Source: Burkholderiales bacterium
Lineage (GTDB): Bacteria; Pseudomonadota; Gammaproteobacteria; Burkholderiales; WYBJ01
NCBI GenBank assembly: GCA_020848435.1
Contig: JADLAC010000002.1
Span: 186,001 to 250,000 of the forward strand
Direction: 5' to 3'
Length of the DNA stretch: 64,000 nt
Positions 6,266 through 33,043 of this stretch are shown piece by piece (positions within the stretch are counted from its first letter, which is position 1; each line of letters opens with the position of its first letter). The notes beneath the pieces are model-generated. The model had not been told where the DNA came from. It ran no database searches and saw nothing but the letters and a program-made list of their open reading frames with translations. The translations under genes were made by a program, and so were the position numbers.

Positions 6266-7048
6266 TCAGATGGCTCTTGCCATCGCCTCGGCGGCCTCGA
6301 TCGCAAGCGCCCCCTCGGTGATGCCGCCTTCGAGCGCATCCGCATCGAAGGTGAGGAATGCAAGCGTCGCGCCGGCAGGCCCGGTGATGAGCGCAGCAGC
6401 GGGTTCGTCACCGCGCACGTAACGAAAACCGGGCGGACCGATCTCGACGCCGTCCATGATAGCCGATCCCTCGAGCACTACCTCGTAGCGCCCGAAAGGC
6501 GGCGCGGGCATGGCCATCGCCGCACTGGCGGGTGCTCGGACGATCACCGCCGCCGGGCCATGCTCCGGGGCGATGAGGTGCTTATACGTGCCCGGCGTGC
6601 CGGCCGGCAACGCTTGCCATTGCACATCGGCCGCCGCCGCCGCGAGGATGCGCCCGCGCAGGTTGATGTGGCGCCGAGCCGCTTGATTGGCCATCGAGAT
6701 GAGCCCGCCCGCCTGCGGGTGCAGCACCAGCATGTCGTGACTTGCGGACACCGAGAAAGGCCCGTAGGGCGTGTTGTGGTCCGTGTAATGAATGGACCAG
6801 GCAGCCAGGTGCTTCACCCCCCGCGGGAAATCCATGGCGCCGCCGAGCAGCAACTGGAACTGCGAGGTGAGATGCATGTGCGCGTACACCGACGGGCAGT
6901 CGTCGAAGCGAAAGCGCATGGCTTCCGGACCACCATCGCGGCCCGACAGCAGCACCTGGCAGGCGAACGTGATGCCTTCGGTCGCGCTGCGCTTCCAGGG
7001 CGCGTTCGCCGCGTCTACGATGTAGCTCTGACGCATCACGGCGTCCAT
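6266..7048 (-). CDS. Cupin-like protein of unknown function
   Basis: About 260 residues with a cupin-like pattern: YAHMHLTSQFQLLLGG contains an HxH pair, and later HYTDHNTPYGPF resembles the second cupin motif, followed by a second beta-rich half. It may be a metal-binding dioxygenase or a ligand-binding double-barrel protein; I do not recognise a named family. The frame stays open to an ATG at 7117, but the extra 23 residues are coded by AT-rich DNA resembling a promoter region, so the ATG at 7048 is preferred; neither has a strong ribosome site. It precedes the DsbA-like gene by 23 bases and is divergent from the mutase operon. Confidence 0.6.
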   Translation of the reverse strand: MDAVMRQSYIVDAANAPWKRSATEGITFACQVLLSGRDGGPEAMRFRFDDCPSVYAHMHLTSQFQLLLGGAMDFPRGVKHLAAWSIHYTDHNTPYGPFSVSASHDMLVLHPQAGGLISMANQAARRHINLRGRILAAAAADVQWQALPAGTPGTYKHLIAPEHGPAAVIVRAPASAAMAMPAPPFGRYEVVLEGSAIMDGVEIGPPGFRYVRGDEPAAALITGPAGATLAFLTFDADALEGGITEGALAIEAAEAMARAI

Positions 7049-7316
7049 TCTAGCCAGAAACGATGCGGCGCTTGTCGTGCGAAGAAAATGTGATTCGAGT
7101 CTATCAATTAATATCATTTGCCCTGATGTAAGGCGCGGTCCATACTAGCCCGGCTCGCGTGATGCAACGATGGCCGCTGAATGTCGTCGGCGTCGCGCCA
7201 TGCTCCTCCTCTTGCAGGGGAGAGCAAAGCGGGCACGCGGAATCGAGCGAGAAGCTCGGCCGGGATCGATCGATTCCGCCGCGCTATCCCATGACCATCG
7301 ATTGGAAGGACAGCCG

Positions 7317-8990
7317 ATGTATCTCGAACAGATCAAGACCGCGGAAGACGAATGGCGCCAGCGCCACCAGGACGAGATCGCGCGGGCCGAATCGGCGCCG
7401 GCTGCCTGCGAGGACGGCATCGTGCTCAAGCTGCTCTATACGCCTGCCGACGCCAAGGCGGACGTCTATGCCGAGGTGGGCTTTCCGGGCGAGTTTCCGT
7501 TCACGCGCGGCAACGATGCGGCCGGTTATCGCAACAAGCTCTGGACGGTCAGCCACTACGCGGGATTCGGCAGTCCGAGCGAAACCAATGTGCTGTTCCG
7601 GCGCATGATCGACCACGGCGGTGTGCCGCCTTATATGGCGCTCGACCTGCCGACGCAGCTCGGCCTCGATCCCGATCACCCGATGGCGCGCGGCGAGGTC
7701 GGAATGGCCGGAACCTCGGTGGCGTCGCTGCGCGACTGGGAGACCATCTTCGACGGCATCGATCTCGAAAAGACGTTCGTCGGTACGGTGGTGAACGCAC
7801 CTGCGGCCGTGTTCCTGGCGATGCACGTCGTGCTGGCCGAAAAGCAGGGGGCGGACCTGACCAAGATCCGCGGCAATCTGCAGAACGACATCCTCAAGGA
7901 GTTCACGGCGCGCGGCAATTTCATCTTCCCCGTCGCGCCGTCGCTGCGCCTGGTTACCGATACGCTCGAGTATTGCGCGCAACATCTGCCGGCATACTGG
8001 CCGCTCAACGTCTGCGGCGGGCATTATCCCGAGGCCGGCGCCAACCGGGTGCACGAGGTCGCGTTCGCCTTCGCCGATGCCTTCACCTACATCGACGACG
8101 CCATCCGGCGCGGCGTGGCGATCGACAACTTCGGCCAGGGCGTCTTCTTCCTGATGAAGACGAACCATACCGATCTTCTGGAAGAGGTGGCGAAATTCCG
8201 CGCCATGCGCAAGATCTGGGCGACGCGCCTGCGCGATCACTATGGCGCCAAGGATCCGGAAACCATGAAATGCCGCGTGCTCGCGCACAGTGGCGGCTCG
8301 TTGCTGACGCGCGAACGCCCCGAGCTCAATATCGCGCGCACGACGCTTGCCTGCGTGGCCGGCGTGCTCGGCGGTATTCAGTTGATCGGCTTGCGCACCA
8401 TGGATGAAGTGTTCGGCATCCCGACCGAGAAGTCGGAGCTGATCGCCATCGGCACGCAACACGTGGTGGCGCACGAAACCGGGCTCCCCGACGTGGTCGA
8501 TCCGCTCGGGGGCTCCTATTGCGTCGAAGCGCTGACCGCCGAATTCGAGCGCAACGTGCTCGAGGAGCTGGCGCGCATCGATCGCATGGGCGGCATGGTG
8601 AAGGCGATCGAGTCCGGCTACGTGCGCAAGGCGATCGCCCAGGATGCCTATCGCACGCATCGTGCATGGGAGTCTGGCACCAAGGTCAAGGTGGGCGTCA
8701 ACAAGTATCGCATCGACGAAGACGAGCCGCCGCGCCAGCCGTACGCCTATAAGCCCGAGGAAGAACAACGCCAGGTGGCGGCGGTGCAACGATTGCGCCG
8801 CGAACGCGACAACGCCGCCGTGTCGAAGGCGCTCGAGCGCATCGTCGAGACCGCGCGGCGGCCTGCGCAGAGCGAGAGCAATCTCATGCCGCCGATCATC
8901 GAGGCGGTGCGCGCATATGCGACGGTCGGTGAAATCTGCGGCGCGCTCAGACAGGTGTTCGGCGAGTACTCCGAACCCACCAGCTTTTGA
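7317..8990 (+). CDS. B12-dependent acyl-CoA mutase, large (catalytic) subunit
   Basis: A 557-residue TIM-barrel subunit of the methylmalonyl-CoA mutase family, of the split type (as in isobutyryl- and 2-hydroxyisobutyryl-CoA mutases) without its own B12 domain. By hand alignment the specificity positions are Tyr81 (MCM Tyr89), Ala108 (the Asp117 position of HcmA) and Arg199 (MCM Arg207), all as in methylmalonyl-CoA mutase. Other active-site positions differ: His236 is kept, but the MCM Tyr243 position is Gly235, the Thr195 position is Asn187, and the APRLSFF loop is GQGVFFL. This points to a dicarboxylyl-CoA substrate that is not plain methylmalonyl-CoA. The ATG at 7317 follows GGAAGGA. The small subunit follows after 9 bases; MeaB closes the set. 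Confidence 0.9.
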   Translation: MYLEQIKTAEDEWRQRHQDEIARAESAPAACEDGIVLKLLYTPADAKADVYAEVGFPGEFPFTRGNDAAGYRNKLWTVSHYAGFGSPSETNVLFRRMIDHGGVPPYMALDLPTQLGLDPDHPMARGEVGMAGTSVASLRDWETIFDGIDLEKTFVGTVVNAPAAVFLAMHVVLAEKQGADLTKIRGNLQNDILKEFTARGNFIFPVAPSLRLVTDTLEYCAQHLPAYWPLNVCGGHYPEAGANRVHEVAFAFADAFTYIDDAIRRGVAIDNFGQGVFFLMKTNHTDLLEEVAKFRAMRKIWATRLRDHYGAKDPETMKCRVLAHSGGSLLTRERPELNIARTTLACVAGVLGGIQLIGLRTMDEVFGIPTEKSELIAIGTQHVVAHETGLPDVVDPLGGSYCVEALTAEFERNVLEELARIDRMGGMVKAIESGYVRKAIAQDAYRTHRAWESGTKVKVGVNKYRIDEDEPPRQPYAYKPEEEQRQVAAVQRLRRERDNAAVSKALERIVETARRPAQSESNLMPPIIEAVRAYATVGEICGALRQVFGEYSEPTSF

Positions 8991-8999
8991 GGAGGCGAC

Positions 9000-9416
9000 A
9001 TGAGCACAGCTCAGCGCAGGATACGCGTATTGATGGGCAAGCCGGGCTTGTGTGGGCATGACCGCGGCATCGTGCTGGTGGTGATGGCGCTGCGTGATGC
9101 GGGCATGGAAGTGATCTATTCCGGCCGGCACAATTCGCCGGAGAGCCTGGTGGAAGTCGCCATCCAGGAAGACGTCGACGTGCTCGGGGTCAGCATTCTG
9201 GCCGGGGGGCACCTCGGCCTGTGCGAGCGCCTCGCCAAGCTCCTGCGTGAGCGCAATGCGCAAGACATCGTGCTGCTCGCGGGCGGTTTCATCCCGCCGG
9301 AGGATATTCCGAAGCTCAAGGCCTTCGGCGTAAGAGAAGTATTCCGGGACGGCGCCAAGCTCGAAGACATCGTCCAGTTCATCGAACAGGTAGCCGGGGA
9401 ACGCGCTGCCGCATGA
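9000..9416 (+). CDS. B12-dependent acyl-CoA mutase, small (cobalamin-binding) subunit
   Basis: A 138-residue stand-alone B12-binding domain. The canonical DxHxxG cobalamin loop (normally KPGLDGHDRG) here reads KPGLCGHDRG: Lys14 and the axial His20 are kept, but the aspartate that hydrogen-bonds this histidine is Cys18. VDVLGVSILAGGH and LLAGGF.P complete the nucleotide-tail pocket. It binds adenosylcobalamin base-off/His-on and pairs with the large subunit, whose stop lies 9 bases upstream; GAGG precedes the ATG at 9000. The Asp-to-Cys change is unusual and would alter tuning of the cobalt ligand. Confidence 0.92.
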   Translation: MSTAQRRIRVLMGKPGLCGHDRGIVLVVMALRDAGMEVIYSGRHNSPESLVEVAIQEDVDVLGVSILAGGHLGLCERLAKLLRERNAQDIVLLAGGFIPPEDIPKLKAFGVREVFRDGAKLEDIVQFIEQVAGERAAA

Positions 9417-9456
9417 CTATGAGCCCGCGCACTCGCGGGCGGCAAAGGATCCCACC

Positions 9457-10797
9457 ATGGGCGTAACCCAGACACTATCGAAGTTCCTCCTGGACACCAC
9501 CTACCAGGACTTTCCGCAAGAGGTCGTCGATCGGGCCAGGATGCTGGCGTTCGATTTCGTCGGTGGCGCCCTGGCGGGCTGCCATACCCACGTGAGCAAC
9601 ATCTTCACCGGCTACGTGCAGGACATGGCGGCGAAGCCCGAAGCGGTCGTCATTGGCCGGCGCGTCAAGACCACCGCGGCGTATGCCTCCTATCTCAACG
9701 GCCTGTTCAATCACTCGACCGAGCTGGAGTCCGTGAGCCAGCGCACGTCTCCCAATCCGCTCGCGGTCATCGCCACGGCCCTGTCGCTCGGCGACAAGAT
9801 GAAGCTCTCGGGCAAGAGCGTACTGGAGGGCCTGATCCTGGGCTTCGAGATCCAGGGCAGGATCGGCGGTCCATCGCTCAAGGGGATCAGCAAGAAGGGG
9901 CGGATCAGCATCTTCAACCACCTCGGGACGGCGGCTGCCGCCGCCAAGATGATCGGCTTGAGCTTCGACCAGACGCGGATGGCGCTCGGTACCGCCGCCT
10001 TTCAGGCAGGCGGCTTGATCACCTCGGTCGGGACGATGGCCCACGTCGCGGAGCTCGCCTACGCGTCGCGCGACGGCATCGAGGCCGCCGAGCTGGCGAA
10101 ACGAGGATTCACCGCGCATCCCGACATCATCGAGACGCCGCAGGGCTTTTGCGAGGCGTTGATCGAGGAAGGCGGCTACGACCTCGACGCCATGACGCGC
10201 GAGCTGGGTAAGAGCTACCAAGTCGTCGATCCCGGCATCTCCATCAAGAAGTATCCCTGCTGCTATCGCTCGCATCGCGCCCTCGACGCGTTCTACGACA
10301 TGCTGGACGAGCACCGGCTATCCAGCGACCAAGTCGAGAAGATCAGCGTCGACATGAATCTGTACGATTCATACCTCATGAAATTCCCCGAGCCCAAGAC
10401 CGGCGAAGAGGCGAAGTTCAGCTTCCGCCACATCTTTGGGGCGGCGCTGCTGAAGGGCAAAGTCTGGATCGATTCCTTTTCGGACGAAGCGGCGGTCGAT
10501 CCGAAATACGTCGCGGCCCGCGCGCGAGTGGACGAGGTCGTGCATCCCGATTGGCCCACCAGCCGAGCGGAGGCCCGCATTCCCGTCACGATCAAGCTCA
10601 AGGATGGACGCGTGCTGTCGAAGGAAAATGCCACGCCGCGGGAGCCGACTATGAATCAGCTCGTGGAGCGCTACCGCGAAGCCGCCGACGGCATACTGAC
10701 ACGCGATCAGACCGAGCAATCGATCGAGCAGCTGCTGCAGATCGAAAAATCGCAGGATGTGTCGCAGATCATGGCGCTGCTCGCCGTGCGCGCATGA
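9457..10797 (+). CDS. MmgE/PrpD family protein
   Basis: A 446-residue member of the family that includes 2-methylcitrate dehydratase and cis-aconitate decarboxylase. The usual active-site segment H.LDYDD is replaced by NHSTELESVS, while the KKYPCCYRSH motif of the C-terminal part is intact. AHVAELAYASRDG stands where the more usual KRLHAGWAA occurs. These changes suggest a substrate different from the next MmgE protein. It begins 40 bases after the B12 subunit gene and is followed by a second MmgE/PrpD gene, both lying between the mutase and its GTPase chaperone, so it probably handles the mutase substrate or product. Confidence 0.88.
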   Translation: MGVTQTLSKFLLDTTYQDFPQEVVDRARMLAFDFVGGALAGCHTHVSNIFTGYVQDMAAKPEAVVIGRRVKTTAAYASYLNGLFNHSTELESVSQRTSPNPLAVIATALSLGDKMKLSGKSVLEGLILGFEIQGRIGGPSLKGISKKGRISIFNHLGTAAAAAKMIGLSFDQTRMALGTAAFQAGGLITSVGTMAHVAELAYASRDGIEAAELAKRGFTAHPDIIETPQGFCEALIEEGGYDLDAMTRELGKSYQVVDPGISIKKYPCCYRSHRALDAFYDMLDEHRLSSDQVEKISVDMNLYDSYLMKFPEPKTGEEAKFSFRHIFGAALLKGKVWIDSFSDEAAVDPKYVAARARVDEVVHPDWPTSRAEARIPVTIKLKDGRVLSKENATPREPTMNQLVERYREAADGILTRDQTEQSIEQLLQIEKSQDVSQIMALLAVRA

Positions 10798-10902
10798 GCG
10801 GCCGTACGCAGGCGCGGGCTGGGGCTTGCCTCGAAGCCCGCTCCGCGCGCGGCCGGCATGACACGATGTCCCCTTGTCCCTCTTGAAGATCGGTCCCGAC
10901 CC

Positions 10903-12303
10903 ATGACTACGACGCCCACGATCGCCGAACGCCTGACGCAATTCAGCGAGACCCTGCAATTCGAAGCCATTCCGCCGCAGGTCATCGACAAGACCAAGCA
11001 GCACCTGCTCGACGTGGTCGGTGTCTGTCTGGGCTCCACCCGGATCGACTTCGGCAAGTCCATCCTCAAGACCGTCGCCGGTTGGGGCGGCACGCGCGAA
11101 GCGACGCTGATCGGCCGGCGTACCAAGGTGCCCGCGCATCATGCGGCGTTCTGCAACGGGGTGCTGGGCCATGGCCAGGATTACGACGACACCCACACCG
11201 AATCGGTGGTGCACCCGAGCGCGGCGCTGATGCCGGCCGCGCTGGCGGTGGCCGAGCGCACCGGCGCATCCGGGCGCGAGATGCTGACGGCGCTGGTCGC
11301 CGGCCTGGAAGCGACCATCCGGATCGCCATGCCCGCCCTCAACAAGATTCACCTGCGCGGATTCCACACGACCTCTGTCGCGGCCACGTTCGGCGCGGCG
11401 TTGATTACCGCGCGGCTGGAGCGCATCGGTCTCGCCCGGGCACTGCAGGCAACGGGTATCGGTGGCAGCTTCGCCTCCGGGTTGCTGGAATGCGTCCCCG
11501 CCGGATCGGGCGCCAAGCGCTTGCACGCGGGTTGGGGCGCGCTGTGCGGCATCGTCGCGGCCCAGTTGGCGCAGGCGGATTACACCGGCCCGAACACGGT
11601 GTTTGAGGGCAAGCTCGGCGTCTACAACTCCTTCCTGCGCGGCGAATCGCTCGACCTCGATACGATCTTCAATGGGTTGGGGCGGCAGTGGGAGATACTG
11701 GATATCCGCCCGAAGCTCTATCCGTGCTGTCATTACCTCCAGGCCTTCCTCGATTGCGCCGCGGCACTGCGACGCGAGAGCGGGATACCGGTCGAGGACA
11801 TCGCCGCGATTTCGTGTCGTATCGCGCAAGGGGCGGTCAACATGGTGTGCGAGCCCTGGGACAAGAAGCTCGCCCCTGTCACCGGCTACGACGCGCGTTT
11901 CAGCCTGCCGTTCGCGGTTGCGACGATGCTCATACGCGGCAAGGCGGGCGTGGCCGAGTTCTCGGAAAAAGTCGCGGCCGACCCGGAGATCCGCCGGCTG
12001 ATGGCAAAGGTCACCTACAGCGTCGAGCCGAGCTACCAGGTAAAGGACATGCCGGGCTGGGTGGAAGTCACGCTGCGCAATGGGACGCGGCACGTGCGCG
12101 AAGTGCCCGAGGTGCGCGGCAGCGCGAAGCAGCCGATCGCGCTGGAAGAGCTGTTGGAGAAGTTCAACGCCAACACCTCCTTCCTCGACGCCGGTCAACG
12201 CTCGCGTATCGCCGACGAGGTCCTGGCGATCGACAAGGACGCCGACGTGCGCCGATTCATGACGCGCTTGGGTGCACCCGAGGTGGTCAGGAATGCAGCC
12301 TGA
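10903..12303 (+). CDS. MmgE/PrpD family protein
   Basis: A 466-residue family member with a canonical active-site region: HGQDYDDTH, a following HPSAALMPAAL, KRLHAGWGA near residue 205, and KLYPCCHYLQ. This is the most classical MmgE sequence in the window and the most likely to be an active dehydratase or decarboxylase. I chose the ATG at 10903; an in-frame ATG at 10858 would add 15 residues that do not look conserved. It sits 105 bases after the first MmgE gene and 72 bases before meaB. Paired, sequence-divergent MmgE genes suggest either a heteromer or two successive steps. Confidence 0.88.
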   Translation: MTTTPTIAERLTQFSETLQFEAIPPQVIDKTKQHLLDVVGVCLGSTRIDFGKSILKTVAGWGGTREATLIGRRTKVPAHHAAFCNGVLGHGQDYDDTHTESVVHPSAALMPAALAVAERTGASGREMLTALVAGLEATIRIAMPALNKIHLRGFHTTSVAATFGAALITARLERIGLARALQATGIGGSFASGLLECVPAGSGAKRLHAGWGALCGIVAAQLAQADYTGPNTVFEGKLGVYNSFLRGESLDLDTIFNGLGRQWEILDIRPKLYPCCHYLQAFLDCAAALRRESGIPVEDIAAISCRIAQGAVNMVCEPWDKKLAPVTGYDARFSLPFAVATMLIRGKAGVAEFSEKVAADPEIRRLMAKVTYSVEPSYQVKDMPGWVEVTLRNGTRHVREVPEVRGSAKQPIALEELLEKFNANTSFLDAGQRSRIADEVLAIDKDADVRRFMTRLGAPEVVRNAA

Positions 12304-12375
12304 ACGGCGCGCGCCGCGCATTGCAGCGCGCGGCGCCGCTGTGTGCTTGCGCGCCATGCGCGTTGAGCCGCGCCT

Positions 12376-13341
12376 GTGACGATGGGCGATCGCCTCGGCG
12401 GCAGCGCCGATGATTACGTCGCAGGAATACTGCGTGGCGATCGCCGCTCGATAGCGCGCGCGATTTCGGCGGTCGAGAACGAGACCGCGACCGGTCGCGC
12501 GATCTTGCGCAATATCCAGCGCCACCTGGGGCGCGCGCAGCTCATCGGCATCACCGGTGCTCCGGGCGCCGGCAAGTCCACGCTGGTGAGCGCGCTGATC
12601 GGCGAGTTCCTGGGTCGCGGCAGGTCGGTGGGCGTGGTCGCGGTCGATCCGTCGAGCCCGTTCAGCGGCGGCGCCATCCTGGGCGATCGCATCCGCATGG
12701 AGCGTCATTCGCTCGCCGAGCGGACCTTCATTCGCTCGCTGGCGACACGCGGCCATTCGGGCGGCCTGTCGCGCGCGGTGGTCGCCGTCGTCGATGTGCT
12801 GGATGCCGCAGGCTTCGACCTCATAATCGTCGAAACCGTCGGCGTCGGGCAATCGGAAGTGGAGATCGCCGAGATTGCCGACACCCGCATCGTGGTGTGC
12901 CCGCCGGGGCTAGGCGACGACGTGCAAGCCATCAAGGCGGGCATCCTCGAGATTGCCGACATCCTCGTTGTGAGCAAGGCCGACCTGCCGCTCGCCGACA
13001 AGACCGAGCTGGATTTGCGCTTCATGTTGAGCGTGCGCGACCCGTCGGCGCGCCAGCCCGCGATCGTGCGCGTGAGCTCGGTCGCGAGCATCGGCATCAC
13101 CGAGCTGGCCGACTCGATCGATGCCAGGCGAGATCTGGGTGTAGGCAAACGCGGGATCGGTTCGCGCGCGCGCATGCGCCGGCTATTCGCGCAAGAGGCG
13201 GCCAACCTGCTGCGCCGGCGGATGACGTCCATCGAAAGTCCGGCGCTGGACGCGCTGTGCGATGCCGTCGCATGCGGCGACATCGATCACGAGCAGGCGT
13301 CGTTGCAGGCCATGCGCCTGGTCATGGAAGGGTGTCGTTGA
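12376..13341 (+). CDS. meaB: MeaB/ArgK-type G-protein chaperone of the acyl-CoA mutase
   Basis: A 321-residue P-loop GTPase that loads and protects B12-dependent acyl-CoA mutases. Walker A is GAPGAGKST (61-69), the family mark VDPSSPFSGGAILGDR follows, then ETVGVGQSE (switch region) and the base-recognition motif, which reads SKAD instead of NKAD. The Asn-to-Ser change in that motif is worth noting but occurs in some GTPases. Start is GTG at 12376 or ATG at 12382; neither changes the domain. It is the last gene of the mutase set and converges with the LysR gene 18 bases on. Its presence confirms that the upstream pair is a true B12 mutase. Confidence 0.93.
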   Translation: MTMGDRLGGSADDYVAGILRGDRRSIARAISAVENETATGRAILRNIQRHLGRAQLIGITGAPGAGKSTLVSALIGEFLGRGRSVGVVAVDPSSPFSGGAILGDRIRMERHSLAERTFIRSLATRGHSGGLSRAVVAVVDVLDAAGFDLIIVETVGVGQSEVEIAEIADTRIVVCPPGLGDDVQAIKAGILEIADILVVSKADLPLADKTELDLRFMLSVRDPSARQPAIVRVSSVASIGITELADSIDARRDLGVGKRGIGSRARMRRLFAQEAANLLRRRMTSIESPALDALCDAVACGDIDHEQASLQAMRLVMEGCR

Positions 13342-13359
13342 GCCTTGAGAGCAGCGCGA

Positions 13360-14271
13360 TCAGTGCTTGCGCGCCTTGGCGTTCGGCGATTGCCTGAAGG
13401 TGCTGCAGGCCTGGGCGAGCTGGGCGATGACCTGGGACAGCGGTTGAATCTGGCGTTGCTCGAAAACCGCGACATACTCGAGGGCCGGCAGCCGCGGCGC
13501 GATGTTCAAGACCTGCAGCCGGCCGTCGTCGACCTCGTGCGCGAAGTGCTCGCGCGGCAGGTAGCTCACGCCCAGCCCGGCTATGGTGAGCGCGGCCAGC
13601 ACGCCGATGCTGTTGCAGGCATTGGTTCGCTTCATGGTCGCGCCGCTCGCCTCGAACCACTTGGCGAGCAGCTTGTGCAGGTTCGAGTCGTGGGTGAGCG
13701 TGAGCAGCGGCCATGCGTGCAAATCCCGCGGCGTGAGCCGCTTGCTCGGCACCCCGAGCTTGCTGCTCGCCATCCAGGCGAATTCGACCGATCCCAGCGA
13801 TACGTTCGCCAATCCGGGCTCTTCGATCGGTCCCGGCAGCACGGCGACGTCCAGATCGCCGCTTTGCAGCTTGCGCAACTGAGTGAGCGTGAGATCGACG
13901 TCGAGCTCGAGGGCGATATCGGGATACTCTTCGTTGATCGCGCCGACCAGCTTCGGCAGCCAGGTGACGGCGACGAACTCGGTGACGCCGAGCCGTACCG
14001 TTCCGGACAGGACCTTGGGATCGCCGATGCGGTGGCGGATTTCCGATGTCGCGGCCATCAGCCGTTCCGCGTACGGAATCAGCTCCTGGCCCTTGGCGGT
14101 CAGTCGGGCCGAGCGCTGATTGCGGTCGAACAAGGTGACCCCGAGGCTGCTCTCCAGGTCCTGGATGCGCATCGATACGGCGGACTGGGTGGAGTGCAGA
14201 TGATGGGCGGCGGCGGCGAATCCGCCCAGGCGGCAAACCCAGTAGAAGGTTTCGAGTTGTTTCAGGGTCAC
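13360..14271 (-). CDS. LysR-family transcriptional regulator
   Basis: A 303-residue LysR protein: winged HTH in residues 1-60 (TLKQLETFYWVCRLGGF, STQSAVSMRIQDLESSLG), then a co-inducer-binding domain with the usual two lobes. Start is a GTG at 14271 (TLKQLETF follows directly, as is normal for the family); another GTG at 14310 would add 13 residues. Neither has a clear ribosome site. It is divergent from an MmgE/PrpD gene (258-base gap), the normal arrangement for a LysR protein and its target, and convergent with the mutase set. The effector is probably an organic acid or acyl-CoA handled by these genes. Confidence 0.9.
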   Translation of the reverse strand: MTLKQLETFYWVCRLGGFAAAAHHLHSTQSAVSMRIQDLESSLGVTLFDRNQRSARLTAKGQELIPYAERLMAATSEIRHRIGDPKVLSGTVRLGVTEFVAVTWLPKLVGAINEEYPDIALELDVDLTLTQLRKLQSGDLDVAVLPGPIEEPGLANVSLGSVEFAWMASSKLGVPSKRLTPRDLHAWPLLTLTHDSNLHKLLAKWFEASGATMKRTNACNSIGVLAALTIAGLGVSYLPREHFAHEVDDGRLQVLNIAPRLPALEYVAVFEQRQIQPLSQVIAQLAQACSTFRQSPNAKARKH

Positions 14272-14475
14272 GGCGGCGCGAAGCGTGTGGTGTGGAGAAA
14301 ATGTTATCACCTGTGTTGTGCACCAGCCGTATCGCCGTGCCGGCGTGCGCGAACGTTGCGAATCGATCGGTGCAGGAGCGCAGAGCAGGGCGCTTCGCTC
14401 GCGGTCGTTGTGATGGTTATGGGCTTGCCGGAGTCGATTTCGCGAAGCGGTTCCGCCGCCCACGCGAGCTCGATT

Positions 14476-14496
14476 GCGACAGGCTCCTGGCCTGGA
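14476..14496. repeat. Degenerate copy of dispersed GACAGGCTCCT repeat
   Basis: GCGACAGGCTCCTGGCCTGG is close to two other copies at 35677-35702 and 59394-59410. It lies in the divergent LysR/MmgE intergenic region. This copy has only a weak inverted repeat. Confidence 0.45.
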
Positions 14497-14529
14497 TAGT
14501 CCCGCTAAACTTATCGAGAGGCAGCCCTC

Positions 14530-15864
14530 ATGCTCGTCAACGAATTCGGAAAATTCATCGCCCAGACCGGCTACGAAAGCCTGCCGGCCGCTGTCGTCGC
14601 CACCGTCAAGCTGCGGGTTCTGGACTTGCTGGCGGCGGGTCTCGCGGGATACAAGATGGGCTGTCATAAGCAGTTGCTGCCCATTCTCGGCGGAGCGCCA
14701 GAAGCCACGGTCTGGGGCGTGGGGAACAAGCTCGCCTTGCGCGATGCGATTCTGGCCAACAGTTTCATGTCGCATGCGCTTTACATCGAAGATGGGTCGC
14801 GCTTCACCGGCGGCCATCCCTCGCCCGTGGTCATGCCCGCTGCGATCGCACTGGCGGAAACCCAGCGCAGCTCGGGTAAGGATTTGATTGCCGCGGTAGC
14901 CGCCGGCTACGAGGTATTCCTGCGGCTCGGGCGGGCTATCTACCCTTCCACCGTCGTGCGGGGTTTTCAGAGCACCGCGGTGCTCGGCGCGGCGGCTTCC
15001 GCGGCGGCGTGCGCGAGCCTGCTGCATTACACCTCGGCGCATGCGAAAAACGCGATCGCAATCGCTTGCAGCCTGGGCGTTGGGCTCAAGGAGGCGCTCA
15101 AGAGCTCCGGCAGCCAGCCCATTCAAGTGGCGCGTAGCTGCGAGGGCGGGCTGATGGCGGCGCTCTTTGCCGGCCAGGGCGCCGAAGGCGCGGACAGCAT
15201 ACTCGAGGCCGGCTTTCTGAAGGCGTTCGCGGAAGACCCGCCGACCGACGCCATCCTCAGCGGCCTCGGGCGCGACTTCCGCATCTTCGAGACCTACATC
15301 AAGGTCCACGGCGGCTGCCGCGGCAACCACGCTCCGGTCGACGTGGTGCAGGATGTGATACGCAACAATGCCATCGCGCCGGAAAGCATCGCCAGTATCG
15401 CGATTCGGGTCGACTCGGTAACCTATGCAGCGGAGATTCACGCGCCCAAGAGCGGCAACGAGGCTCAATTCAGCGTCGCTTTCGCAGTGGCCGCCGCGGT
15501 GGTCAAAGGCGACGCCTCGATCTTCCGCTACACGGATGCGACGCTGGCCGATCCGGACGTTCGTGCAATGATGGCCAAGGTGACGGTCGAAGTCGATCGT
15601 GAGCTCGACAAGGGTTATCCCGAGAACCGCGCGGCGGGCGCGCAGATCGTGCTCACCGACGCCCGGCGTTACAGCGGCACCATCCCGAATGCGAAAGGCG
15701 AGCCGGAAGCGCCGTTCAGCGCCGCTGACATAGAGTCCAAGTTTCTCACGCTGGCAGAAGACATTCTGCCCGGCGGCGGGGGGCGTGTGCACGAGCTGGT
15801 GATGGGCCTGGAGCGTCTGCCCGATGTCGGCGTCGTGGCTGCTGCGCTGAAGGCGAAAGATTGA
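14530..15864 (+). CDS. MmgE/PrpD family protein
   Basis: A 444-residue family member. The active-site segment is SHALYIEDGSRFTGGHPS, with Glu in place of the first Asp of the classic D.DD pattern, and the lysine motif is replaced by QPIQVARSCEGG. The C-terminal YPCC motif is IKVHGGCRGNH. It is therefore a different sub-branch from the two MmgE proteins beside the mutase. The ATG at 14530 follows a short GAGG. It is divergent from the LysR gene, so it is the likeliest regulated target, and is followed closely by a Bug binding protein. Confidence 0.87.
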   Translation: MLVNEFGKFIAQTGYESLPAAVVATVKLRVLDLLAAGLAGYKMGCHKQLLPILGGAPEATVWGVGNKLALRDAILANSFMSHALYIEDGSRFTGGHPSPVVMPAAIALAETQRSSGKDLIAAVAAGYEVFLRLGRAIYPSTVVRGFQSTAVLGAAASAAACASLLHYTSAHAKNAIAIACSLGVGLKEALKSSGSQPIQVARSCEGGLMAALFAGQGAEGADSILEAGFLKAFAEDPPTDAILSGLGRDFRIFETYIKVHGGCRGNHAPVDVVQDVIRNNAIAPESIASIAIRVDSVTYAAEIHAPKSGNEAQFSVAFAVAAAVVKGDASIFRYTDATLADPDVRAMMAKVTVEVDRELDKGYPENRAAGAQIVLTDARRYSGTIPNAKGEPEAPFSAADIESKFLTLAEDILPGGGGRVHELVMGLERLPDVGVVAAALKAKD

Positions 15865-16994: not shown

Positions 16995-18368
16995 TCAAGC
17001 CAGGACAAGCGGCGCGAACAGCCGGTCGATATTCGTGCAACGGTCGAGTCCCCAGATCGCATCGATGGCATTCTGGGCTTGGCTGCGCGGAAGCAGGTCA
17101 TGCACGAGGCCAAGGAATTTGCGTTCGATGTCGCCGTCGCTGAGCGGGTTTCGAGGATGCCCCGGGGGAAAGCCAAGGACCTTCTGGACGCTCGTACCGT
17201 CGCTGAAGCTCAGCGCGATGCCGCCGCCCGATGCACCCGGCCAGGACTGGCTGAGATCATCGTCGGCCACGATGCTGACCTTCGCGATCATGTCCGCGAC
17301 ATCGCTGGAGCGAATCCTTGCATCGGTAAACTGTTCGTGGCCGCAGGCGCCGTCGAGGAGCGATACGGCCACGCAGTAATGCATGCTGTGGTCCGCCGTT
17401 TCCTTGTCCCGCGGCCGCAACTTTTCGGGATCCGCCGCCTTCTTGGCGACGGCCGCGGGCAGCTTCACCACCACACGATCCACGTCCTGTAGCCGAGCGC
17501 GCGGGATTCCAAGGTCGAGCACCGCTTGGATGGGGGCCATGGCGCCGGCAACCGCGGGGTAGGGCTTGAGGCAGCTGCGCATGATGCGCCGCTCGCCGCA
17601 GAACAGCTCGCCCAGCAAGCCATAGTCGAGCGACGCCGCCACGGCGCGTGTCCAGCCGCACGGGCCTTCGAAGATCCGCTGCGGACCCGTGAGCCCGGCG
17701 GCGGCGAGATAGGCCGCCTCGACGGCGTTCTTCGAGACATAGGCTTCCGCGGTGGCCTTCATGAGGGGGATATCGCCGCGCTGCGCTTCGGCGAGGCAGT
17801 TGTTATGGCTGCCTGCGATGGCAAGCGCATTCGCCGTGACTGCCTCGTCGTCGCAGAGCAAGCGCGAAGCCAGTGCGGCGCTCGCGAACTGGAGGTGGGT
17901 CGCGGTATGCCAGCCCCGCCCGGAGATGCCGGGGGGGGCGACCGCGTCGCATAAGCCGATGTGGATCTCGTAGCCGATGACCATCGCGGTGATTACGTCG
18001 CGGCCGCCGCGGCCCTTGTGCTGGGCGACCGCGAGCGCGGCCGGGATGTTGTTGCTCGGATGCGCGGAGTCGGCGCCGAAATAATAGTCGTTGCTGTCGA
18101 AGTAGCGCACCAGCGTCGCGTTCACCAGCGTGGCCAGCGGCGCGGAGCATTTTTCGACCTCGCCCACGATCGACGCATGGCGGGCTCCGCTCCACAGGGA
18201 AGCGACTTCGCGTGCGATGCGAGCCGGCGCGCTGGCATGCGCAGCGAGTGCGCACCCGAGCGTGTCGAGCAGAAGGCGCTTGCATTGGTGTACGACCTCC
18301 GGCGCCAGCGCCTCGAATCGCACTGCGTGGACGAGCCGAGCGAGCTGCATGCTCAGCGCAGTAGACAT
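16995..18368 (-). CDS. MmgE/PrpD family protein, PrpD-like branch
   Basis: A 457-residue protein with VRYFDSNDYYFGADSAHPSNN, the R..D.ND...HPSD-like pattern of true 2-methylcitrate dehydratases, rather than H.LDYDD. LMKATAEAYVSKNAVEAAYLA and LKPYPAVAGAMAP also fit that branch. It may dehydrate a 2-methylcitrate-like tricarboxylate. There is no prpB or prpC nearby, so the classical methylcitrate cycle is not encoded here. The ATG at 18368 follows GGAGG. It is divergent from the next MmgE/PrpD gene across 145 bases. Confidence 0.88.
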   Translation of the reverse strand: MSTALSMQLARLVHAVRFEALAPEVVHQCKRLLLDTLGCALAAHASAPARIAREVASLWSGARHASIVGEVEKCSAPLATLVNATLVRYFDSNDYYFGADSAHPSNNIPAALAVAQHKGRGGRDVITAMVIGYEIHIGLCDAVAPPGISGRGWHTATHLQFASAALASRLLCDDEAVTANALAIAGSHNNCLAEAQRGDIPLMKATAEAYVSKNAVEAAYLAAAGLTGPQRIFEGPCGWTRAVAASLDYGLLGELFCGERRIMRSCLKPYPAVAGAMAPIQAVLDLGIPRARLQDVDRVVVKLPAAVAKKAADPEKLRPRDKETADHSMHYCVAVSLLDGACGHEQFTDARIRSSDVADMIAKVSIVADDDLSQSWPGASGGGIALSFSDGTSVQKVLGFPPGHPRNPLSDGDIERKFLGLVHDLLPRSQAQNAIDAIWGLDRCTNIDRLFAPLVLA

Positions 18369-18513: not shown

Positions 18514-19890
18514 GTGACCATCACCCGTAGTCTGGTTCGCGAGGTGCGTGCGATCGAATTCGCGCGCCTTCCTGCCGAGCTCGTGGAGTTGAGCAAGCAG
18601 ATCGTGCTCGATGGCCTGGCGGTCTCGATCGCAGGGGCGCGGGAACCCTCGGGATTGGGACGCATCGTCTGCGAGTACGTGCGATCGCTGGGAGGCGCTG
18701 CGCAGGCGAGCGTCGTCTGCGCCGGCTTCAAGACCTCGGTGGTGAATGCAGCCTATGCCAACGGCTGCCTGGCGCACGCGCTGGACTTCGACAATACCTG
18801 GTATCCGCTGAATCATCCGACCTCCCCGACCTTGCCGGCCATAATGGCGTTGGCGCAGCATCGCTCGTTGAGCGGCGAGCGTGTCATAGAGGCGCTCGTC
18901 GCCGCCTTCGAAGTGCAGGGCCGGCTGCGGCTGGCCGCGACCGGGATGGCGACGGGGAAGGGATTCCACAAGCCCGGCATCACCGGCGTCATGGGAGCAA
19001 CGGCCGCGGCGATCAAGCTGCTCGGGCTGAGCGAACAGCAGGCCGTGATGGCCTTCGGTATCGCCGGCTCCCGCGCCGGCAGCCTGTCGGTAAATACCGG
19101 CACCATGACCAAATCCTCGCATTCCGGTCATGCCGCTCGCATGGGCGTGGAATGCGGCCTCAAGGCAGCGCACGGCTGGACGGCGGCCGATGATGTGTTC
19201 GGGCCGGGAGGATTCTTCGATACCTTTTGGCCAGGCAACGCGGCGCCCGAGCGCCTGGTCGAGGGCTTCGGCGAGCCGTGGCGCATGCTCGATCCGGGTG
19301 TCGGCTTCAAGAAGTATCCGTCGAACTACTTCACGCATCGTCCCATCGATGCCATTCTCGCGCTGCGCAGAGAGCTTGCATTCGCCGCCGAGGATGTGGA
19401 ATCCGTGCGGGTGCGATTTCCCGCCGCGGTGAGCTACGTGGACCGGCCCGCGCCGGCAACCGGGCTGGACGGAAGATTCAGCGTGCAGTACGTCGTGGCG
19501 CTTGCTTTGCTCGATCGCGAGATCACCATGGAGTCCTTCACCGACGAGCGCCGTTTCGCGCCGGATGTGCGAGCGCTGCTCCCGCGCATCGAGCTGGTCA
19601 TGGACGAGGGCATACCGGGAGACTTCGACGACACCTATGTCGAGGTCGATCTCGCCCTGAAAGACGGCCGAACGGCGAGCAAGCGCATGGCGAAGCTCAG
19701 CGGCTGGTGCGGTAACCCGCTGAGCGATGCCGAGCGCATCGGCAAGTACCACCAGTGTGTCGATGCAGCCCTGGGAAGGGCTGCGGCGCAGCGCCTGCTC
19801 GACCTGGTCCAGGGACTCGAGCACGCGCGCGATGTCCATGGGATCATGGATATCGCGCAGACTCCGTGGCGAACGAACGAGCAGCAATGA
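18514..19890 (+). CDS. MmgE/PrpD family protein
   Basis: A 458-residue family member with AHALDFDNTWYPLNHPTSP: the His and first Asp are normal but the DD pair is DN, and the lysine motif reads TKSSHSGHAARMG. The late motif is FKKYPSNYFTH. The start is GTG at 18514 without a clear ribosome site, about 30 bases after a plausible promoter. It opens a plus-strand run (binding protein, SDR, binding protein, CoA-transferase) with short gaps, so all five may act on the same acid. Confidence 0.87.
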   Translation: MTITRSLVREVRAIEFARLPAELVELSKQIVLDGLAVSIAGAREPSGLGRIVCEYVRSLGGAAQASVVCAGFKTSVVNAAYANGCLAHALDFDNTWYPLNHPTSPTLPAIMALAQHRSLSGERVIEALVAAFEVQGRLRLAATGMATGKGFHKPGITGVMGATAAAIKLLGLSEQQAVMAFGIAGSRAGSLSVNTGTMTKSSHSGHAARMGVECGLKAAHGWTAADDVFGPGGFFDTFWPGNAAPERLVEGFGEPWRMLDPGVGFKKYPSNYFTHRPIDAILALRRELAFAAEDVESVRVRFPAAVSYVDRPAPATGLDGRFSVQYVVALALLDREITMESFTDERRFAPDVRALLPRIELVMDEGIPGDFDDTYVEVDLALKDGRTASKRMAKLSGWCGNPLSDAERIGKYHQCVDAALGRAAAQRLLDLVQGLEHARDVHGIMDIAQTPWRTNEQQ

Positions 19891-29096: not shown

Positions 29097-30482
29097 ATGA
29101 AAGCAGAAACGAACGCTTCGCAGCACGCCCTGCGGCTGCTGGAGTTTGCAAGCACGCTGGCCGCGGAACCGCTGCCAAAAGGGATCGCCGCCAGGGCCAA
29201 GCGGTGTCTGCTCGATAACCTGGGATGCGGCTTGTTCGGCGCCAGCCAGCCTTGGTCGCGGATCATGCTCGACGAGGTGCTCGCCGATGCATCCAAGGGC
29301 GCGTGTACCGCGTTCGGGTGCGAGCAAGGATTATCGCCGGTGCTGGCCGCGCTCGCGAACGGCAATGCCATACACGGTTTCGAGCTCGACGATCTCATCC
29401 CGGCAGCGCTGATCCATCCCGGTACGGTTATCGTTCCGGCGGTGCTCGCTGCAGCGGAGGCGAGCGGCGCGTCCGGGAGGCGCGTGCTCGCTGGCTTGGT
29501 GGCCGGTTACGAGGCAGCCGCACGCATCAGTCTGGCGCTCGGGGTCGAGCCCTCGCAGCGCGGGTTCCACAAGACCGGCGTGGTGGGACCGGTGGCAGGG
29601 GCCATCGCGGCCGGCGTCGTCACCGGGCTGGCGATCCCCCAGCTTCAAAGCGCCGTCGGACTGGCATGCTCGATGGCCTCGGGCATCAAGGCCTTCGCGG
29701 GCGGCGGCGGTGGCGGCATGGTGAAGCGCCTGCATGCTGGGCGGGCCGCGGAAGCAGGTGTCCGGGCGGCGCAGCTCGCTCGCCGCGGCTTCACCGGGCC
29801 CGCAACCGCGTTGGACGGTCATCTCGGTCTGCTCGAGGTCTTCAGCGGCGCATCGGCGCAGCGTGAGCACTTGTCGCAGGCTCTCAGCGAACGCTGGTTC
29901 ATCGATGATGTCTGGATCAAGGTGTATCCCCTCTGCGGGTGGATCCAAGGCGTCGCGCAATTGCTGCTGGCGCTGCGTGGTCCGCAGCCCCTCAGCCCGG
30001 CGCAAGTGAAGAAAGTGACGATAGGAACCAGCGCGTTCGCGGTCAAGCACAATGGCAATCGGTCGCCACGCGACGAGATGGAAGCGCAATACAGCATTCC
30101 TTACTGCGCGGGCTTGGCGCTGACCGCGGATCCCGGCGATCCGAAAGCGTTTTTGCTCGAAGCCCTCGCCGATCCCGCCGCGCATGCGCTCTCGGAGCGC
30201 GTCGAGCTGCACGTCGATGCCGAGAGCGAGGCCGTGTATCCCAACCGTTTCGGTTCCCGCATCCGCCTCGAGCTGGCGAACGGGGAGACCAGGCAGGCAT
30301 TCACGCTGGATCCGCACGGGACCGCGACCGATCCGCTCACCGATTCCGAAGTGGCGCAGAAGTTTCTGCGCCTGGCGCGATTGTCGCCCCGCGCCGTGGA
30401 TGCGGCGGCGATCCAACGCCGGGTCGAGGATCTCGATACGTTGAAGAACGTCCACGAGCTGACGTTGCTGTTGCGCGGCTGA
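29097..30482 (+). CDS. MmgE/PrpD family protein
   Basis: A 461-residue family member with IHGFELDDLIPAALIHPG (Glu in the first acidic position, DD retained), a glycine-rich AGGGGGGMVKRLHAGRAA and IKVYPLCGWIQG. The lysine motif KRLHAG is canonical, so it is probably catalytically competent. I chose the ATG at 29097 after ACGAGAGAG; an upstream ATG at 29028 directly follows the preceding stop but its codons look unrelated. It lies between two binding-protein genes. Confidence 0.87.
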   Translation: MKAETNASQHALRLLEFASTLAAEPLPKGIAARAKRCLLDNLGCGLFGASQPWSRIMLDEVLADASKGACTAFGCEQGLSPVLAALANGNAIHGFELDDLIPAALIHPGTVIVPAVLAAAEASGASGRRVLAGLVAGYEAAARISLALGVEPSQRGFHKTGVVGPVAGAIAAGVVTGLAIPQLQSAVGLACSMASGIKAFAGGGGGGMVKRLHAGRAAEAGVRAAQLARRGFTGPATALDGHLGLLEVFSGASAQREHLSQALSERWFIDDVWIKVYPLCGWIQGVAQLLLALRGPQPLSPAQVKKVTIGTSAFAVKHNGNRSPRDEMEAQYSIPYCAGLALTADPGDPKAFLLEALADPAAHALSERVELHVDAESEAVYPNRFGSRIRLELANGETRQAFTLDPHGTATDPLTDSEVAQKFLRLARLSPRAVDAAAIQRRVEDLDTLKNVHELTLLLRG

Positions 30483-31678: not shown

Positions 31679-33043
31679 TCACCCGCGGGTGACGCGCGCT
31701 CGATACAGCCTGCGCAGATCGCATACGTCGGCCATCGCCTCGATGCGGTAGAGGCTCGCGATCAGCTCGCGCGAGCGTTTGTCGCCGAGCACGGGTGCCA
31801 TCAGGTCCATCGCCTTCGCGTCTTCCTCGTCGCTGGAAACGGGATTCTCGGAGGTGCCTTTCGCGGCCAGAATGCGATGACGCAATACCCGGCCGTCATC
31901 GAGGGTGATCGCCATTTCGCAACGCCAACGGCGCAAGGCATCGGTCAGTGCCGGATCGCCCACGGTTTCGATGCGCCGGGCCACGGCGAGCACGCGTTCA
32001 TCGGTCATTCGCGAAGCATCGTGTGCCGACGCGAACGTCAGGCCGCCGTCGACCAGCATGACCGCGAGCAGGTGCGGCAGCGAGATGTCGGACATCGTGC
32101 GGCCGGTGACGAGCGCAAGCTCCTTGTCGGGCAATCGGGCGACGATTCTGCGCACGTTCATCGCCTGCAAGCCGTGCCGCCGGATCAGCTCGTGCAGGAC
32201 GTGCAAGGGCCCCTGGATGGGTCCGCCGGCGGACCAGCACTTTATACCTGCACGCATGATCTCGTAGCGCTGTCCCAAGCCTAGCCCGAGCTCGCGCGGA
32301 TCGCCGTCCGGTGAGAAGGTAGCGAACAGGTTATGCTGCCCGGAGAACACATCATCGACACCGCTGAACCCGGATCGAACCATGGACGCCGCCTCCACAC
32401 CGCCTCGGGCCGGCATGCCGCCGACGGCGTATGCCTTTTCGATATGGCGCGAGTCGCGCAATCGCGTGTAGAGCCCGGACGCCTGCTGCCCGGCGTAAGC
32501 GAACACGTGGCGAACCTGTTGCGCGTCGAGCCGCAGCAGCGCGGCCGCACTGGCCGCGGCACCGAATAGATGCCCATAGGTGCTGCTGACGGGTTTGGGC
32601 GCAAGCGCGAGCAGGACGCGCGCACAGACGTCGTAGCCCAGCACCAGCGCGCGTAGGAATGCTCGCCCGCCCAGGCGATGCTGCTCGCAGATCGCGAGCG
32701 CGGCGGGGACGATGCTCGACCCCGGATGCGATCGTGTCGGCGGATGGGTGTCGTCGGTCTCGTCGGCGTGCGCGCTCATGCCGTTGGCCAACGCCGCGTA
32801 CGCTACCGAGGTCAGGATTCCCGTCCCCAGGATACCGGCCTCGCGCCGGGTTCCCAGAGACTTCGCGTAGGCTGCCGCGCGCATCCCGGGGAGGAGCCGC
32901 GATCCGGCGATCATCGCGGCGAAGGTATCGACCAGATGCACGCGGGCGCGCTCTGCGACCTCGGCGGGAAGCGGCTTCGATAGCGCGCCGGCCACGTAGG
33001 CGCTCAGCTTGGACATCGGCGGCGAGACATCATCGGACTTCAT
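31679..33043 (-). CDS. MmgE/PrpD family protein
   Basis: A 454-residue family member: AHADETDDTHPPTRSHPGSS keeps a His and DD pair with altered spacing, the lysine region reads HIEKAYAVGGMPARGG instead of KRLHAG, and IKCWSAGGPIQG replaces YPCC. It thus differs at every active-site motif from its operon neighbour. The ATG at 33043 follows GGGAGA. It starts 40 bases after the stop of the upstream MmgE gene; the two probably form a pair. Confidence 0.87.
   Translation of the reverse strand: MKSDDVSPPMSKLSAYVAGALSKPLPAEVAERARVHLVDTFAAMIAGSRLLPGMRAAAYAKSLGTRREAGILGTGILTSVAYAALANGMSAHADETDDTHPPTRSHPGSSIVPAALAICEQHRLGGRAFLRALVLGYDVCARVLLALAPKPVSSTYGHLFGAAASAAALLRLDAQQVRHVFAYAGQQASGLYTRLRDSRHIEKAYAVGGMPARGGVEAASMVRSGFSGVDDVFSGQHNLFATFSPDGDPRELGLGLGQRYEIMRAGIKCWSAGGPIQGPLHVLHELIRRHGLQAMNVRRIVARLPDKELALVTGRTMSDISLPHLLAVMLVDGGLTFASAHDASRMTDERVLAVARRIETVGDPALTDALRRWRCEMAITLDDGRVLRHRILAAKGTSENPVSSDEEDAKAMDLMAPVLGDKRSRELIASLYRIEAMADVCDLRRLYRARVTRG

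Follow-up and report, generated by a model that had tools for sequence, protein, structure and literature searches.

Which reaction is served by a split adenosylcobalamin (AdoCbl)-dependent acyl-coenzyme A (CoA) mutase whose genes lie together with three genes of the MmgE/PrpD family? The question is raised by a locus of a Burkholderiales bacterium (GenBank assembly GCA_020848435.1, contig JADLAC010000002.1, positions 186,001 to 250,000 of the forward strand); the whole of this stretch, 64,000 nucleotides in length, was analysed and is called the window below. The conserved unit consists of seven genes, window 7103-15864, an interval that begins with a short conserved stretch ahead of the first gene:

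7317-8990, plus strand: large (substrate-binding) subunit of the split AdoCbl acyl-CoA mutase, 557 amino acids (PF01642, 556 bits; TIGR00641)
9000-9416, plus strand: cobalamin-binding small subunit, 138 amino acids (TIGR00640, 134 bits; PF02310)
9457-10797, plus strand: MmgE1, an MmgE/PrpD protein with an altered active site (PF03972/PF19305, alignment)
10903-12303, plus strand: MmgE2, an MmgE/PrpD protein with all six compared catalytic/binding residues present (family profile, alignment)
12376-13341, plus strand: MeaB-type GTPase chaperone for AdoCbl loading (TIGR00750, 296 bits, above the cut-off; PF03308; Walker A GAPGAGKST)
13360-14271, minus strand: LysR-type regulator, a conserved member of the unit (PF00126, PF03466)
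14530-15864, plus strand: MmgE3, an MmgE/PrpD protein with an altered active site, the final conserved gene of the unit (family profile, alignment)
7103-7157, no strand assigned: candidate promoter/operator, a conserved stretch 5' of the mutase gene (84% identity over 56 nucleotides between the window and locus L114 of a second species)

An earlier note on this DNA had given the gene order as mutase large subunit, B12 subunit, MmgE, MmgE and MeaB; this order and its coordinates are correct, and the unit extends further, as the reverse LysR gene and the third MmgE gene are conserved too. The mutase lies outside every characterised clade against which a test was possible. As to its role, we give about even chances that the unit supplies some of the enzymes by which a bulky 2-substituted succinate, or an unsaturated or hydroxylated analogue of it, is catabolised.

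Placement of the mutase and its substrate pocket

The large subunit belongs to the AdoCbl acyl-CoA mutase superfamily both by its profile match (PF01642, 556 bits) and by its similarity (Z scores of 50-51) to the structures of methylmalonyl-CoA mutase (MCM) and 2-hydroxyisobutyryl-CoA mutase (HCM). Its AlphaFold model (predicted local distance difference test, pLDDT, 87) superposes on HCM 4r3u with Z 51.3 and a root mean square deviation of 1.8 Å over 546 residues, and on MCM 4req with Z 50.2 and 2.7 Å over 549 residues; stretches 327-330 and 363-367, bearing some of the residues discussed below, have pLDDT below 50. The predicted fold is of the MCM type, which leaves the subfamily undecided.

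In a tree of 63 rows, the window protein, its ortholog in G002 (a further species belonging to the genus), a paralog from its own genome (49% identical to the window large subunit), the relative of this paralog in genome G292 and the protein of locus L116 form one clade (SH-aLRT, the Shimodaira-Hasegawa-like approximate likelihood ratio test, 99), whose members share an insertion of one residue behind the APRLSFF region. When ethylmalonyl-CoA mutase (ECM) is included in a 36-row tree, this clade joins the iaa-type mutases with a support of 97; the same node is weak in the 63-row tree (34), and a free search over 36 rows without ECM missed it, although the constrained grouping had a slightly better likelihood (approximately unbiased, AU, test, p 0.68). 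On these alignments the window clade is likely to be sister to the iaa-type clade; the latter owes its label to the genes around its members, which encode hydantoinase A/B, an acyl-CoA dehydrogenase, a family III CoA-transferase and a molybdenum hydroxylase.

The large subunit had been claimed to fit neither MCM, isobutyryl-CoA mutase (ICM) nor HCM, and the AU tests bear this out. Positions inside the MCM clade (p 4e-5; Tyr243 to Gly, Gln330 to His), the ICM-like clade with Gln207 (p 0.0003; Tyr81/Arg199 instead of the Phe89/Gln207 signature) and the HCM clade (p 0.0017; the Ile89/Gln207 signature is absent as well) were rejected, and so was a grouping of the window pair with the iaa-type (IaaG) rows alone, excluding the paralog and L116 (p 0.0013); all these p values are somewhat generous, because the groups were named after seeing the first tree and the branches are long. 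The ICM/IcmF profile NF045497 yields 218 bits against a cut-off of 1500. As for ECM, the tree gives no grouping with Ruegeria MeaA, which occupies its own long branch; the window subunits are split, in contrast to the fused B12 domain of ECM, and the unit lacks the ccr gene with which ECM is linked. A Desulfobacterales locus (L004) tried as an alkylsuccinate-type reference was discarded, its neighbours not being alkylsuccinate genes.

Residues were numbered after P. shermanii MCM and aligned to those of human MCM and of HCM; the PDB titles Y89F and H244A are consistent with the numbering. The large subunit retains Tyr81 (Tyr89 of MCM), Gln189 (Gln197), Arg199 (Arg207), His236 (His244), Glu239 (Glu247) and Arg320 (Arg326). 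Its changes are Arg87 to Ser79, Ser114 to Tyr106, Phe117 to Leu109, Thr166 to Val158, Thr195 to Asn187, Tyr243 to Gly235, Arg283 to Gly275, Ser285 to Phe277, Phe287 to Leu279, His328 to Leu322 and Gln330 to His324, and it has FGQGVFFL (FGKGIFFL in the G002 ortholog) where APRLSFF is usual. Every residue that the earlier note had picked out by hand (Tyr81, Arg199, Gly235, Asn187, GQGVFFL) thus holds in the alignments. Tyr89, Arg207, Asn187 and Gly235 all recur in the G002 ortholog, and because the same residues recur at 87% identity and a dN/dS of about 0.10, the deviations are not noise. Among 17 tabulated positions, 11 are changed in the window enzyme versus one in an ECM and four in iaa-type enzymes, a count that describes the enzyme and is no test, favouring changed positions because the positions were picked after seeing the alignments. 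Tyr243, Thr195 and Gln330, altered here, are invariant in the MCM rows and ECM, and Gly at the Tyr243 position was found, among the fetched large subunits, only in the window pair and one Rhodococcus enzyme linked to a nonribosomal peptide synthetase. The rows of MCM, ECM and the iaa-type enzymes share Tyr89 and Arg207; among the ICM-like and HCM rows, Gln takes the place of Arg207. The Tyr81/Arg199 pair should hold the substrate carboxylate, and His236 is the catalytic histidine. The retained pair would then imply a carboxylated substrate, the replacement of Tyr243 by Gly would enlarge the pocket and, together with the changes at Thr195, Gln330, Phe117 and Phe287, it suggests a pocket that has been reshaped.

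With the MCM of human and P. shermanii the window enzyme shares the fold (Z 50) and Tyr89, Arg207, His244, Gln197 and Glu247, but MCM is a single chain with a fused B12 domain and a DxHxxG motif, and the two disagree at 11 of the 17 residues in the table. HcmAB, the HCM of Methylibium and Xanthobacter (4r3u), is similar in fold, split subunits and a nearby MeaB gene; its Ile89 and Gln207, in contrast, stand where the window enzyme has Tyr and Arg, at 37-42% identity.

A further enzyme of comparison is IaaGH from the indoleacetate degradation pathway of Aromatoleum aromaticum, a (2-aminobenzyl)malonyl-CoA/benzylmalonyl-CoA mutase which interconverts arylsuccinyl-CoA and arylmethyl-malonyl-CoA (PMC8360864). 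Both have split large and small subunits, the Tyr89/Arg207 pair and a replaced Gln330. The iaa-type rows, about 45% identical, differ in retaining Tyr243, Arg87 and DxHxxG, and nearly all of them Thr195 and Arg283; their clusters contain hydantoinase, acyl-CoA dehydrogenase and CoA-transferase genes without MmgE. Considering the possible sister relation (support 97 in one tree, AU p 0.68), the window pair could be a genus-level (aryl)malonyl-CoA mutase of this type with arylsuccinyl-CoA as the substrate. However, it departs from the iaa-type rows at 10-11 of the 17 positions in the table, the AU test rejects a clade that unites it with these rows to the exclusion of the paralog and L116 (p 0.0013), and the unit contains none of the iaa partner genes; we regard this explanation as unlikely.

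Several other mutase loci came to light in the same comparisons. The paralog of the own genome (G000:C37; L115, 1252-10593) is accompanied by genes for CoA ligase, enoyl-CoA hydratase, the small subunit, UbiD decarboxylase and FMN oxidoreductase; its mutase, small subunit and ligase recur jointly in G292 (L150) with 65-80% identity, and this locus possibly represents another undescribed mutase pathway. Loci L121 (G002:C155:4001-24000), L162 and L164 share a recurrent set of enoyl-CoA hydratase, both mutase subunits and a family III CoA-transferase, with Ala at the Tyr243 position, and those of L162 and L164 also include genes of an IclR/KdgR-type regulator and a TRAP transporter. The mutase pair of L125 (8821-11009, G012:C6) has Gly at the position of the catalytic His244 and Glu instead of the motif Asp (ExHxxG), and adjoins thiolase-like and 3-hydroxyacyl-CoA dehydrogenase-like genes.

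Conservation of the seven-gene unit

In G002 (locus L114) all seven genes are present in identical order and orientation, with protein identities of 67-90% (87% for the mutase large subunit, and 79% for LysR, which has the same place and orientation); both genomes are drafts, that of the window's organism (G000) comprising 5.73 Mb in 89 contigs at 93.55% completeness. The DNA similarity between the two species spans 7103-15812 with short gaps and stops at both edges, the flanks being unrelated and the upstream flank in G002 holding a Cas3 gene. Since the order is shared and the similarity is confined to this interval, the seven genes either move together or are kept together. All of them are under purifying selection: the NG86 dN/dS values are 0.10 and 0.04 for the large and small mutase subunits (the lowest of the seven), 0.28 for MeaB, 0.19 for LysR, and 0.18, 0.24 and 0.16 for MmgE1, MmgE2 and MmgE3, respectively; dS is close to saturation, which makes these values rough, though all are well under 1.

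A search for the mutase-MmgE gene order elsewhere, proposed in the earlier note, recovered the seven-gene block in G002 and in no other searched genome. Searches of relatives and at the levels of order, class and phylum, about 1,270 with some genomes counted more than once, gave one ortholog, in G002, and a contig scan with short exact peptides gave nothing above 46% identity among the matches listed. In the fetched mutase loci, many of them short, no MmgE gene stands beside a mutase except in G000 and G002; the gene context of the very GC-rich loci L151, L152, L154 and L156, where gene calls are unreliable, was left out.

The proximity could in principle be accidental, as the genome carries 75 PF03972 genes in 5.73 Mb, eight of them in the window, and a mutase beside three of these would then say nothing about a pathway; the lack of MmgE genes next to the mutases of the other fetched loci agrees with this. 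Yet a block of seven genes has been kept between species amid unrelated flanks (Cas3 upstream in G002, similarity within 7103-15812 only), and among the matches listed in 100 genomes no relative of MmgE1 beyond this unit exceeds 33% identity, which makes mere chance rather improbable. Improbable, too, and slightly more so, is that the pair is the drifted MCM of this bacterium, converting (R)-methylmalonyl-CoA to succinyl-CoA next to unrelated MmgE genes. Such an origin would account for the retained Tyr89, Arg207 and His244 and for the fact that, apart from the window gene, only the paralog and IcmF carry PF01642 in the own genome, with no full-length canonical MCM found, which could be an assembly gap. 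It is opposed by the rejection of the MCM clade (AU p 4e-5), by the alteration of Tyr243, Thr195 and Gln330, constant in the MCM rows and ECM, and by the MmgE genes accompanying the mutase in G002 too, where the flanks are different.

The stretch 7103-7157 lies just beyond the main conserved block and overlaps the start of a reverse open reading frame (6266-7117). Neither an Rfam family nor a sigma-70-like element matches it; signals of riboswitches, tRNAs and promoters did not rise above chance.

The CxHxxG motif of the small subunit

The motif of the small subunit reads K-P-G-L-C-G-H-D-R-G, with Cys18 (codon 9051-9053) replacing the Asp of DxHxxG. Lys14, His20 (the cobalt-ligating histidine), Gly23, SxL (as SIL) and GG are retained with spacings of 41 and 27. 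The base-off/His-on motif (DxHxxG, SxL and GG) is therefore incomplete in both species, Asp being changed to Cys; for comparison, the motif rule is DXHXXG-41/42-SXL-26/28-GG, and the acid in question forms a His-Asp hydrogen-bond linkage in methionine synthase, with an analogous acid in MCM (PMC4915002). We treat CxHxxG as a variant motif, not as an exclusion from the superfamily, since the assignment rests on profile and fold. The Cys is conserved in G002 despite a codon difference, TGT in the window and TGC in G002. Among 116 readable motif rows, not all of them independent as some genes occur in several loci, Asp is present in 107, Cys in eight (all copies of the window and G002 genes) and Glu in one. 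A degenerate DNA pattern search in 340 genomes of the order found B12 subunits with CxHxxG in no genomes but G000 and G002, the pattern requiring a fixed neighbourhood that other variants could escape; of five other hits, four proved on translation to be something other than B12 domains, and the remaining one is the same DNA as one of these four. A few keyword searches of the open-access literature gave no precedent for CxHxxG, which is not proof of absence. That the pair is a degenerate mutase, or plays a non-mutase role as a cobalamin carrier or sensor, with the Cys marking lost catalysis, would be in line with the lost motif Asp, the many changed pocket positions and the missing catalytic residues of two of the three MmgE proteins, but we consider it very unlikely, given that the lowest dN/dS values fall exactly on these two subunits (0.10, 0.04), the Cys is kept across differing codons, His236, His20 and Lys14 are retained and the MeaB gene is kept adjacent.

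The MmgE/PrpD proteins and a possible pathway

The MmgE/PrpD family is mostly uncharacterised, with 50,344 homologs spread over 21,713 species, or about 2.3 per species; its characterised substrates have a common 1,4-dicarboxylate backbone, the (S)-(R)-methylsuccinate isomerase is active on the free acid and inactive on the CoA ester, and the conserved residues in iminodisuccinate (IDS) epimerase are H85, D88, H99, H150, K198 and K266 (PMC12290011). In this numbering, MmgE2 has His85, Asp/Glu88, His99, His150, Lys198 and Lys266. In MmgE1 His99 is replaced by Asn, His150 is deleted and Lys198 is replaced by His; in MmgE3 Asp88 is replaced by Tyr, and His150 and Lys198 by Gln; the same patterns are repeated in the G002 orthologs. 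The AlphaFold model of MmgE1 (pLDDT 93) is structurally nearest to IDS epimerase (2hp0, Z 51), followed by cis-aconitate decarboxylase (Z 47) and methylcitrate dehydratases (Z 35-40), though its relation to the epimerase is distant, at 21-22% sequence identity. MmgE1 resembles methylsuccinate isomerase and IDS epimerase in family and fold, and MmgE2 keeps the compared residues, whereas MmgE1 and MmgE3 are without His/Lys residues proposed as catalytic (PMC12290011). Both proteins may have acquired new chemistry or an accessory role.

A protein 52% identical to MmgE3 and altered at its active site in the same pattern is encoded in G098:C4 (L189, 9409-10791) among other MmgE and TctC-like genes; because no mutase lies within the 20 kb read there, MmgE3-type proteins also occur independently of the mutase. 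The own genome has its 75 MmgE/PrpD genes (PF03972) above the Pfam cut-off, and those of the window lie at 9457-10797, 10903-12303, 14530-15864, 16995-18350, 18514-19890, 29097-30482, 31679-33043 and 33084-34460. First-look candidates, not all scored, number 45-96 in other members of the genus versus mostly 0-17 in the other families of the order, and the expansion is accompanied by many TctC-type receptors.

Mutases of this type interconvert succinyl-type and malonyl-type CoA esters. In the route for a bulky 2-substituted succinate which we favour, MmgE2 with its canonical active site would act on the free 1,4-dicarboxylate by epimerisation at C2 or by addition or removal of water, MmgE1 and MmgE3 perhaps taking changed or accessory roles on the same acid. 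A CoA-transferase or ligase encoded elsewhere would form the CoA ester, and the MeaB-loaded mutase would shift the thioester group between neighbouring carbons, converting a substituted succinyl-CoA to a substituted malonyl-CoA or the reverse; the substituted malonyl-CoA would then be decarboxylated and beta-oxidised, and LysR would sense a pathway acid. We infer this order of steps. In favour of the route are the retained Tyr89/Arg207 pair and the changed pocket, the likely sister clade, located in iaa-type clusters whose mutase handles an arylsuccinyl-CoA and an arylmethyl-malonyl-CoA (PMC8360864), the 1,4-dicarboxylate backbone of the MmgE/PrpD substrates (PMC12290011), the structural proximity of MmgE1 to IDS epimerase, the low dN/dS of all seven genes with DNA similarity limited to the block, and the precedent of an alkylsuccinate cluster with the same types of gene (PMC7180275). 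The earlier note had proposed that a carboxylated acyl-CoA is rearranged and its product then dehydrated or decarboxylated by MmgE enzymes. The first half of this proposal fits the Tyr/Arg pair, while the second finds no support, two of the three MmgE proteins lacking catalytic residues and methylsuccinate isomerase taking the free acid and not the CoA ester (PMC12290011). Because the tested family member acts on the free acid and the known substrates share a 1,4-dicarboxylate backbone, MmgE more likely precedes CoA activation; the mutase-first order is less likely, because MmgE would have to accept a CoA ester.

The locus had also been put forward as an undescribed system. It is real, conserved and outside the tested clades; the constellation of mutase, MeaB and MmgE, however, is not unprecedented, because alkylsuccinate gene cluster 1 of Desulfoglaeba alkanexedens ALDC contains both mutase subunits, a LAO/AO-transport (MeaB-type) ATPase and MmgE/PrpD (PMC7180275). 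This four-part likeness is one of gene content only, and the Desulfoglaeba cluster has alkylsuccinate synthase genes, none of which was recognised in the window unit, the own genome not having been searched for them.

Several points weigh against the substituted-succinate route. The conserved unit contains no CoA-ligase, CoA-transferase or acyl-CoA dehydrogenase gene, which leaves the steps flanking the mutase unanchored; that it encodes no CoA-activating enzyme is the weakest point. Ser, Gly, Phe and His stand in place of Arg87, Arg283, Ser285 and Gln330, respectively, positions presumed to contact CoA, and because several such residues are changed, the acyl carrier itself is uncertain. MmgE1 and MmgE3 may be without MmgE catalysis altogether. 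The iaa identity of the sister clade is given by gene context, as compared with PMC8360864, and not by the sequence of a tested enzyme. Finally, the unit occurs, among the sampled genomes, in two genomes of one genus only, and the evidence from co-conservation is accordingly thin.

A bolder and rather doubtful possibility is that a Cys-His relay to the cobalt ligand operates instead of Asp-His in a mutase of the bulky-substituted-succinate route, along with two MmgE/PrpD proteins whose active sites are new, and that the chemistry is new as well. In one attempt to engineer a lactyl-CoA mutase, all first-shell active-site mutants tried were inactive (PMC11599936). The window mutase is a different template and therefore of interest, combining many pocket changes with purifying selection, as against the inactive engineered mutants. 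Pocket residues set the substrate in this mutase family, the exchange of Asp for Cys next to the cobalt-ligating His amounts to a natural experiment in tuning the lower ligand, and the cluster offers a concrete handle on the MmgE/PrpD proteins, 75 copies of which are encoded in this genome.

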